Below, piece after piece: positions 46,505 through 48,330 of a DNA stretch of 52,172 nt. The position numbers and the translations under genes were made by a program. How positions within the stretch are numbered: the stretch's first letter is position 1; the number at the start of each line of letters is the position of its first letter. The notes under the pieces are model-generated. The model worked only from the letters and a program-made list of their open reading frames with translations, was not told the DNA's origin and did no database searches. Source of the stretch: Desulfobulbaceae bacterium (GTDB lineage Bacteria > Desulfobacterota > Desulfobulbia > Desulfobulbales > VMSU01); the NCBI GenBank assembly GCA_013792005.1, contig VMSU01000248.1:1-52172 (forward strand), given 5' to 3'.

Positions 46505-47437
46505 TTATAGCCCTTCGTTCTGAAGCTGTTGGATCAGTTCTTTCTGGACAGGGGTGAGTTTTGAGGGGATTTCGACCAGGAAGCGGATCAGGAGATCGCC
46601 GCGAGGTCCATGAGGACCGGAGGGCAGGCCGTGACCCTTGAGGCGGAGTTTTGCCTGGGGTTGAATGCCATGGGGAACTTTGACCTTCAAGGTCTTACCT
46701 TCCGGGGTGGGTACAGCAATATTGTCTCCCAGGATGGCCGATGAGAAGGGGATGAGCTTTTCCAGGATCAAGTCATTGCCATCCCGGCTGAAGTTGGGAT
46801 CTGGTTGGATGTTGATGATCAGAAAGAGATCGCCCGATGGTCCGCCTTGGGGAGAGGCCCCGCCTTTGCCTGTAACGCGGAGCTTTTTGCCGGACTCAAT
46901 ACCGGCGGGAATTTTTACTGAGACTTTATCGGCATTGACGCCTCGGCCCAGGGCAATGGTTTTTTCTGAGCCAGTTAAGACTTCGGCTAGGGTGATGGCC
47001 AATTCCATCGTCATATCCTGGCCCTTGATCGGTTGAGCCTGTCGGGAGCCGAATCCTTGATGGGACTGGAAAGGATTGCTACCGCCCATGCCGCCCTGGC
47101 TGAAAAAGCTTTCAAATTGAGGGCCGCCTCTGGTACGTCCGCCACCAAGGTTGATGCCAAATTCTCTGAAGATTGAGTTTAAGTCTGCTCCGCGAAAGAT
47201 GTCTTCCTGGGAGTAGCGTTTCTGAAAGGTGTCGGAGCCGAACGTATCGTATTGCTGCCGTTTTTCCGGATCAGAGAGAACGGCGTATGCTTCGTTGATC
47301 TGTTTGAATTTCTCCTCGGACTTCAGGTCGCCTTTGGTTCGGTCGGGATGGTATTTGAGGGCAAGCTTGCGGTATGCCTTTTTGAGGTCGTCCTTGGTGG
47401 CGGACTTGTCAACGCCCAGTATTTTGTAGTAATCCAT
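46505..47437 (-). CDS. cbpA: CbpA-type DnaJ co-chaperone
   Basis: A 310-residue J-protein with the HPD tripeptide at 30-32 (KYHPDRT). A Gly/Phe/Gln-rich linker (about 75-135) leads directly to the DnaJ C-terminal client-binding domains ([23 protein letters not shown].., [20 protein letters not shown]). The CxxCxGxG zinc fingers of DnaJ are absent, so it is the type II, CbpA-like form. It stimulates DnaK. RpoH at 12.7 kb may control it, but no sigma-32 promoter was found with confidence. Confidence 0.92.
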
Positions 47438-47564
47438 GATGTAAATTCAGAAGTATTGGTAGAATGGTTATGTCGGGAGGTAAGTCCTGTGCTAAAGTGA
47501 TGATAGGGCTGCAGCAAGGACGATTGAATAGTGACGCTACGTAAGTGATCACGGGGGTGAAAAC

Positions 47565-47570
47565 TATAGA
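47565..47570 (+). promoter_or_regulatory. possible -10 box for the folA leader RNA
   Basis: TATAGA at 47565-47570 would start transcription near 47577, shortly before the 5' arm of the palindrome. The -35 region 17 bases upstream (TAAGTG) is poor, so this is only a suggestion. Confidence 0.3.
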
Positions 47571-47592
47571 AACTGTGCTCTGCCTCAGAACT

Positions 47593-47700
47593 GTAAGCGA
47601 TTGCAGGGTACCCCAGATGCGCGAAATGGGGCTGCGAGCTATACTTTGGTATGTGAGCAGCCCCATGACAAAGCAGATGGGGTGTCCTGTGATTGCTTAC
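47593..47700 (+). ncRNA. structured RNA candidate upstream of folA
   Basis: The outer arms GTAAGCGATTGCAGGG..CCCCA (47593-47615) and TGGGG..CTGTGATTGCTTAC (47678-47700) pair over all 23 positions as plus-strand RNA, with five G.U pairs. On the minus strand those five are A-C mismatches. An asymmetric internal loop (10 and 11 bases) separates this from a perfect 10-bp stem ATGGGGCTGC (47626-47635) / GCAGCCCCAT (47657-47666), capped by TATAC-TTTG-GTATG. CCCCA/TGGGG segments can also re-pair locally into two hairpins. It ends 81 bases before the DHFR start. It may be a cis-regulatory leader or small RNA; no known family matches. Confidence 0.5.
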
Positions 47701-47781
47701 GACGCTACTATAAGGAGTGACACGGGGTTTGGCAAGCGTAAACCTTCCCATTCTTAACGCTTCTGACAGGAGGATGAAGGT

Positions 47782-48330
47782 GTGGAGATAATCATCATTG
47801 TTGCTATGGCCGCTAATCGGGTGATTGGTCAGCATGGAACCATCCCTTGGCATCTGCCGGGAGAACAGCTTCGTTTCAGAGACACTACCTGGGGGTGGCC
47901 GTTGATTATGGGTCGCAAGACCTATGACTCCATCGGCAGGGCGCTGCCTGGTCGGCGTAATATCATAATCACCCGACAGGTCGGGTATCATGTCGCAGGG
48001 TGTGAGACGGCAAATAGTCTTGATGAGGCCTTGGACTTGTGCCGTGATACGGTCAAGGTCTTCGTTATCGGGGGGGAGCAGATCTTCGTTCAGGCCCTGC
48101 CGCTCACCGACACCGTAATCCTGACCACTATCTCTCGGGAGGTGGAGGGAGATACTGTTTTCCCGACATTCGAACAGGATTTTACAGTGGTCAGCAGGGA
48201 GGTGGCCGTAGATCCGGAATCGTACACCATTGAGGTGTATCGCCGGAAGGGAGAGGACGTTCCCAGAGCGGAGCCGAAGGGGACGGTTTTTTTAGAGCCG
48301 GATTGGAAATCTTCTTTGAAGGTTAGTTGA
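47782..48330 (+). CDS. folA: dihydrofolate reductase
   Basis: A 182-residue enzyme that reduces dihydrofolate to tetrahydrofolate with NADPH. It shows AMAANRVIGQHGTIPWHLPGEQ, MGRKTYDSIGRALPGRRNIIITR, and VIGGEQIFVQALPLTDTVILTTI. The C-terminus is about 20 residues longer than typical DHFR. The start is GTG 47782 with AGGAGG eight bases upstream. The 345-base gap upstream, shared with divergent cbpA, contains the structured RNA candidate. Confidence 0.94.
   Translation: MEIIIIVAMAANRVIGQHGTIPWHLPGEQLRFRDTTWGWPLIMGRKTYDSIGRALPGRRNIIITRQVGYHVAGCETANSLDEALDLCRDTVKVFVIGGEQIFVQALPLTDTVILTTISREVEGDTVFPTFEQDFTVVSREVAVDPESYTIEVYRRKGEDVPRAEPKGTVFLEPDWKSSLKVS

Follow-up and report, generated by a model that had tools for sequence, protein, structure and literature searches.

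A MITE of 160 bp lies between dnaJ and folA in the window, which is the whole stretch of 52,172 nucleotides of the Desulfobulbaceae contig VMSU01000248.1 that was analysed. We hold with good confidence that this element is of the IS66 type, that it is built on a hairpin whose fold has been kept on one strand, and that its insertion between the two genes does not serve the regulation of folA. The first-pass annotation of this DNA had posed a choice between a selected RNA and a transposon palindrome; the element appears to be both. MITEs are usually regarded as decayed transposon ends, whereas many copies and subfamilies of the present element preserve the fold of one strand by compensation as their DNA sequence diverges. 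The presence of 100+ natural variants per genome makes the function of the fold directly testable.

Structure and copies of the element

The hairpin at 47593-47700 forms the right two thirds of the element at 47541-47700, which consists of the following parts.

47541-47700, plus strand (by the well-folding strand): whole mobile element (MITE), 160 bp, with an 8/8 target duplication; the same unit occurs with other 8-bp duplications at many places
47533-47540, no strand: left target-site duplication GACGCTAC, identical to 47701-47708
47701-47708, no strand: right target-site duplication GACGCTAC, overlapping the -10 hexamer of the dnaJ-directed promoter
47541-47556, plus strand: left terminal repeat GTAAGTGATCACGGGG, which begins with GTAA as do IS66-family ends in relatives
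47557-47592, plus strand: spacer ("leader") from the left end to the hairpin; 43-52 nt separate the left end from the hairpin in copies with duplications
47593-47615, plus strand: left arm of the outer stem, opening with the internal terminal-repeat copy GTAAGCGATTGCAGGG
47614-47626, plus strand: left side of the core, CAGATGCGCGAAA (tandem G.A step, TGC helix and GCGAA loop side), near-invariant in own-genome copies and present across phyla
47626-47666, plus strand: inner stem and apical hairpin, whose sequence varies by compensatory changes
47667-47679, plus strand, limits approximate: right side of the core, TGACAAAGCAGAT(G), defined from own-genome copies and other-phylum matches
47678-47700, plus strand: right arm of the outer stem, ending in the right terminal repeat (~16 nt; reverse complement GTAAGCAATCACAGGA)

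The repeat that forms the terminal inverted repeats (GTAAGTGATCACGGGG against GTAAGCAATCACAGGA) is present three times in the element, namely at both ends and as an internal copy at the left foot of the hairpin, and the outer stem pairs the right terminal repeat with this internal copy.

The plus-strand RNA of 47593-47700 has a folding energy of -69.5 kcal/mol with one unbroken 23-bp outer stem, compared to a mean of -31.65 for 200 dinucleotide shuffles (z = -13.0). The minus strand reaches -49.1 kcal/mol (z = -7.7), and its outer stem is interrupted at the A.C positions. In the plus-strand fold, the 23-bp outer stem is followed by a tandem G.A step, a 3-bp TGC/GCA helix, an asymmetric internal loop (GCGAA/GACAAA), a 10-bp inner stem and the apical hairpin. 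The tandem G.A step (AGAT/AGAT), which closes the outer stem, is stable on the plus strand only. The outer stem contains G.U pairs at 7:102, 10:99, 11:98, 16:93 and 17:92 (hairpin coordinates) and zero transversion mismatches, and the apical stem holds a sixth wobble. The refolding of both strands agrees with the original description of a hairpin that pairs fully on the plus strand only and whose outer stem has five G.U pairs and no transversions.

The statement that no known riboswitch is recognised was also borne out, as no Rfam 15 family (THF included) matched in the window at gathering thresholds, and the hairpins themselves gave none even with E relaxed to 1. No intrinsic terminator, searched as a GC-rich stem followed by a T run, was found in 47430-47800. 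The integron attC boxes RYYYAAC...GTTRRRY are absent, and the hairpin ends read GTAAGCG...TGCTTAC.

Searching the own genome of the window by blastn returned 44 places, and a covariance model trained on 23 own-genome copies detected ~120 distinct places, a number derived from 137 rows, some of which are the two strands of one place. At these places in the own genome, the copies are mostly 150-190 bp in length with no transposase gene inside. The element was found in 47 of the 58 genomes searched, which comprise the own genome and relatives of the order. A target duplication of 7-8/8 was identified in 53 of 112 distinct copies from the order, where shuffled flanks expect 0.8; among these 53, the distance between the left end and the hairpin is 43-52 nt in 50 copies, and the remaining 3 are bare hairpins. 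Because 8-bp duplications flank the copies far above the shuffled expectation, the element is a MITE that was transposed with an 8-bp staggered cut.

Several own-genome contigs start or end with the hairpin, e.g., C98:1-81, C161:2-82, C17:1-75, C126:30-136 and C252:30-136. The element therefore breaks the assembly, and its copy number is underestimated. At four loci (L004, L005, L008 and L009), an insertion of 25-30 nt with its own small hairpin is located between GACAA and AGCAGATG (such as CTAAGCGAACGTAGCGAGACTGCGA); the covariance-model matches of ~133-138 nt are probably this form. Two core patterns gave no match in the IMG/VR viral sequences, and a blastn search of plasmids with one short query of another subtype gave none.

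Strand-specific pairing and the core of the fold

In the outer stems of distinct copies, 495 mismatches are G.U on the plus strand and 66 are G.U on the minus strand, as counted in an alignment that gives no bonus for G.U. A comparison of 82 nearest-sibling pairs yielded 151 differences from Watson-Crick to G.U (91 C/T and 60 A/G), 31 from Watson-Crick to A.C (23 A/G and 8 C/T), and 47 double changes from one Watson-Crick pair to another. Over 119 distinct matches, 92.6% of the cells pair and double changes occur at 36 of the 38 pairs, where the alignment was fitted to the model and, in some rows, a hairpin appears again as its reverse strand. The number of double-change cells is 735 in the real alignment, 176 when shuffled and 95-151 with the partners slid; these counts are not independent events, as the copies are related by descent. 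Double changes were found at 18 of the 38 pairs in the own genome alone. The inner and apical stems (helices 3 and 4), which are situated outside the transposon ends, also covary.

Two recurrent motifs accompany this asymmetry. Of 122 matches, 64 have tandem U.G/G.U at one particular set of two outer pairs; tandem G.A is present in 107 of the 122 in the outer stem and in 76 in the inner stem, with Watson-Crick pairs in its place elsewhere. Both motifs are typical features of folded RNA and are stable on the plus strand only.

The same counts bear on the explanation that no selection acts on the fold, according to which the palindrome would be a by-product of the terminal repeats, whose similarity is maintained by the transposase and by template-switch repair, and the wobble would reflect strand-biased mutation. 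The terminal repeat is contained in the outer stem, paired changes can arise by quasi-palindrome repair, and C/T is the commonest class of difference. However, the covarying inner and apical stems are not terminal repeats, the core is fixed though it is not self-complementary, and template switching would remove wobbles on both strands. A bias from plus-strand C deamination alone is not enough because it does not predict the large excess of A/G differences leading to G.U over C/T differences leading to A.C (60 against 8). We regard this explanation as improbable. The contention of the first-pass annotation that one-sided wobble marks a folded plus strand, as opposed to a decaying palindrome, is upheld by the family-wide asymmetry, the compensatory changes, and the plus-strand core that recurs across phyla.

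The core was described by the pattern AGATGC-NNG[AG][AC]A...[AG]AC-NNN-GCAGAT. In the own-genome copies, CAGATGCGCGAAA and TGACAAAGCAGATG are almost invariant. When the exact pattern was searched over GTDB genomes, the matches listed included Desulfobulbales, Marinobacterium, Endozoicomonas, Oscillospiraceae and Phascolarctobacterium; among these matches, those from Gammaproteobacteria, Clostridia and Negativicutes combine the core with other outer stems. The loci of other phyla are present in multiple copies, and the sequences of their outer and inner stems differ yet still pair. A looser pattern, AGATGCNNGRMA-N20..50-RACNNNGCAGAT, was found in 10 of 395 Desulfobacterota genomes, in 3 of 147 genomes from the order of the Oscillospiraceae genome, and in 6 of 143 genomes from the class of Marinobacterium; the reversed control pattern gave one match overall. 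Chance probably accounts for a few isolated matches to the looser pattern that pair poorly. A search of four other-phylum loci against Rfam at E up to 5 returned tRNAs and weak chance matches only.

The internal loop shows coupled non-Watson-Crick positions. At left-5/right-1, 195 of 201 copies have A with G or C with A, and at left-2/right-5, 190 of 201 have C.A or A.C; both states occur in Desulfobacterota and in Clostridia. C.A and A.C in the loop correspond to G.U on the minus strand, and therefore that position alone does not favour the plus strand.

The elements that carry the core differ in architecture. In Marinobacterium and Endozoicomonas (L263, L264, L259 and L273), they are 264-280 bp in length with long ends around two hairpins; their fold, at -150 to -190 kcal/mol, is a closed stem that carries both hairpins, and their target is probably TA. 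The second hairpin has the core form AAGGC/AACGCA or GAGGC/AACGAA on the opposite strand, and these elements therefore carry one core per strand. In Clostridia, the unit is the hairpin alone, and no obvious target duplications were seen around the copies by eye. The Oscillospiraceae copies (L255-L281) are bare hairpins of ~106 nt with the ends TCAGACTG...CAGTCTGA; the exact core is present in 8-10 copies per genome, and 14 matches to the looser pattern were found in HAN073. A conserved G.A mismatch (GAGAAG/TTTATC) is frequent in their outer stem. In other Desulfobacterota families (L287-L291), a subtype NAGGCA...AACNNAGCAGAT is found in several copies per genome.

A tentative reading of this distribution is that the core represents a hitherto undescribed class of structured RNA (or single-stranded DNA) that extends across phyla, that either binds a factor conserved in bacteria or is catalytic, and that different transposons have repeatedly captured. 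The captures would be represented by the IS66-type ends in Desulfobulbales, by long ends, probably with TA as target, in Marinobacterium and Endozoicomonas, and by the near-bare hairpins in Clostridia and Negativicutes. The gammaproteobacterial elements, with one core hairpin per strand, would be arranged as if the core were to be presented whichever strand is read. The compensated fold of one strand and the recurrence of one internal loop with unrelated outer stems in three phyla point to a role of the fold that distant bacteria share and that mobile elements exploit.

The dnaJ-folA site and the role of the fold

The element is flanked by the following features.

46505-47437, minus strand: DnaJ/CbpA-type co-chaperone gene (PF00226 and PF01556), with the element within its predicted 5' UTR
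47707-47735, minus strand: promoter TTGCCA-N17-TATAGT directed into the element and dnaJ (promoter scan; predicted start about 47700)
47782-48330, plus strand: folA, dihydrofolate reductase (PF00186, E = 8e-51)

A dodecin gene (PF07311; 48399-48608, plus strand) is located downstream of folA.

On the dnaJ strand, 8 of 9 genomes have TTGCCA-N17-TANNNT at the orthologous site. The -10 hexamer of the window occupies 47712-47707, and the predicted start at ~47700 coincides with the right hairpin foot. Between the -10 hexamer and the start of dnaJ, the distance is 269 in the window, compared to 66-119 in relatives; subtraction of the 168 inserted nucleotides gives 101. The insertion of the MITE just behind the -10 hexamer thus adds 168 nt to the predicted dnaJ 5' UTR. 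The predicted start and the longer distance therefore place the element where the predicted dnaJ transcript begins. This transcript, from the sole conserved promoter at the site, would carry the minus strand of the element.

The first-pass annotation had interpreted the hairpin as a leader of folA, i.e., as a cis-acting RNA or riboswitch that controls this gene. Its observation that the hairpin lies 81 bases upstream of the GTG start (47782) is correct, PF00186 confirms the dihydrofolate reductase, and the hairpin folds strongly on the same strand as folA. However, the ~120 copies are dispersed over the genome, and the covariance model detected no hairpin upstream of the folA homologue in 8 relatives, including 3 congeners in which dnaJ and folA are back to back at an empty site. 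Furthermore, the intact target duplication is the mark of an insertion, the conserved promoter points away from folA, and Rfam contains no match for the hairpin. Control of folA by the hairpin is scarcely credible, and strong one-sided wobble 5' of a gene should not be taken as evidence of a regulator of that gene.

The orientation of the element also carries no sense bias relative to genes. In tandem contexts across the order, with the minimum ORF length set at 120-200 aa, the two orientations numbered 29 and 41 (p = 0.19), which is no significant sense preference. With orientation close to random, cis regulation of host genes is therefore not the common denominator of the copies. An apparent sense-strand bias of 31 against 61 (p = 0.002), obtained with short ORFs, was discarded since shadow ORFs confound it and it is not significant with longer ORFs.

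The element landed between dnaJ and folA, immediately behind the dnaJ promoter, and we propose that it would have moved as double-stranded DNA by the action of an IS66-family transposase in trans. One strand of the hairpin is kept foldable, such that wobbles are G.U on that strand and the helices change by compensation, while the inner core, with its tandem G.A steps and its asymmetric internal loop of coupled non-Watson-Crick pairs, stays fixed. The selected molecule would more likely be the plus-strand RNA, supplied by read-through or another promoter, than single-stranded DNA, and the core may be recognised by a protein or RNA contact that is widely conserved in bacteria. Selection may benefit the element or make insertions tolerable, and does not concern the regulation of folA; it more likely acts on the element itself.

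On the basis of these sequence patterns, we lean towards a fold that is read as RNA. The alternative that it acts as single-stranded DNA, for example in replication or as a transposition intermediate, is rather unlikely, although the element is mobile as DNA, its orientation to genes is close to random, and strand asymmetry is also found in REPs, which are known single-strand hairpin elements. DNA parameters also favour the plus strand (-29.9 against -24.4 for the minus strand). However, the strand difference is 19.5 kcal/mol with RNA parameters and 5.5 with DNA parameters, as RNA tolerates wobble and tandem U.G/G.U far better. The 8-bp target duplications fit double-stranded DDE transposition, and the core is present in elements with quite different ends.

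Mobilisation and relation to known systems

IS66-family elements have GTAA ends and produce 8-bp duplications. This family trait was checked here, and the IS66 copies in relatives show both. An IS66 DDE gene is present in 25 of the 58 genomes searched, and perfect 8-bp duplications with GTAA ends flank several of the IS66 loci (L114, L115, L116 and L122). In the relative G031, an IS66 DDE gene (PF03050, E = 1.1e-47) is located between GTAACTATCCAGCT ends with the duplication GAATATTT. This locus, L122, contains one intact transposase gene of 475 aa. Over 17 nt, its right end, GTAACTATCCAGCTCAA, coincides exactly with the end that one MITE subfamily has in the own genome; the window copy belongs to another subfamily. 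For the subfamily with GTAACTATCCAGCTCAA ends, this identity lends good support to mobilisation in trans by an IS66 transposase of the L122 type. The 252 contigs of the own genome, a fragmented assembly, contain no IS66 DDE gene; the transposase is therefore elsewhere, lost or unassembled. The possibility that the hairpin is an integral part of IS66 was rejected, as the hairpin was absent from all 14 IS66 loci (0/14).

A different mobiliser would be implied if the hairpin were a palindrome of the REP/TIR type moved by a Y1 (RAYT/TIRYT) transposase. REPs are typically multicopy strand-specific hairpins (PMC3733652), and one own copy is within ~250 bp of a Y1 transposase domain. However, the hairpin is near only 2 of 30 Y1 transposase loci (PF01797), the closer of which adjoins an IS200-like gene, and the GTAG/CGTC tag that defines REPs (PMC3733652) is missing at the foot of the hairpin, where the feet are GTAA...TTAC. 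In addition, Y1 enzymes do not produce 8-bp duplications. Mobilisation by a Y1 enzyme is thus considered very improbable. At L303 (1245-1351), a copy is found immediately upstream of a broken Y1 transposase gene of the IS200 type, which looks coincidental.

The literature search found no description of the element or of its core, and the element was filed as a MITE with IS66-type ends whose core matches no described family found. In comparison with the IS66 family of the single-ORF type, as in L122, the element shares the GTAA ends, the 8-bp duplications and, in one MITE subfamily, an identical terminal repeat; it differs in that the IS66 copies examined have no hairpin core, and the MITE retains the ends only. 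The ERIC, NEMIS/Correia and YPAL MITEs are likewise small, non-autonomous and multicopy, and their transcripts fold into long hairpins, but their terminal repeats and duplications are different (PMC10969869); no report of strand-specific wobble or of a cross-phylum loop core was found for them. Geobacter genomes contain multicopy palindromes of unknown function, and these Geobacteraceae sequences are likewise repeated intergenic palindromes, in related Desulfobacterota (PMC2700814, PMC2996986). Some of them may be the NAGGCA subtype of the other Desulfobacterota families.

The nearest described analogue appears to be QMITE2 of Coxiella burnetii, as set beside the present element by description. 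QMITE2 is a MITE of 150-190 bp with terminal repeats of ~25 bp, target duplications of 7-11 bp, and relatives in distant bacteria (PMC5896051). Its long version contains a stable hairpin that also occurs alone as the short version (PMC5896051); in these respects it resembles the element studied here. The hairpin of QMITE2 has been classed as a GTAG REP (PMC5896051), whereas the present hairpin is without GTAG and has an internal-loop core.
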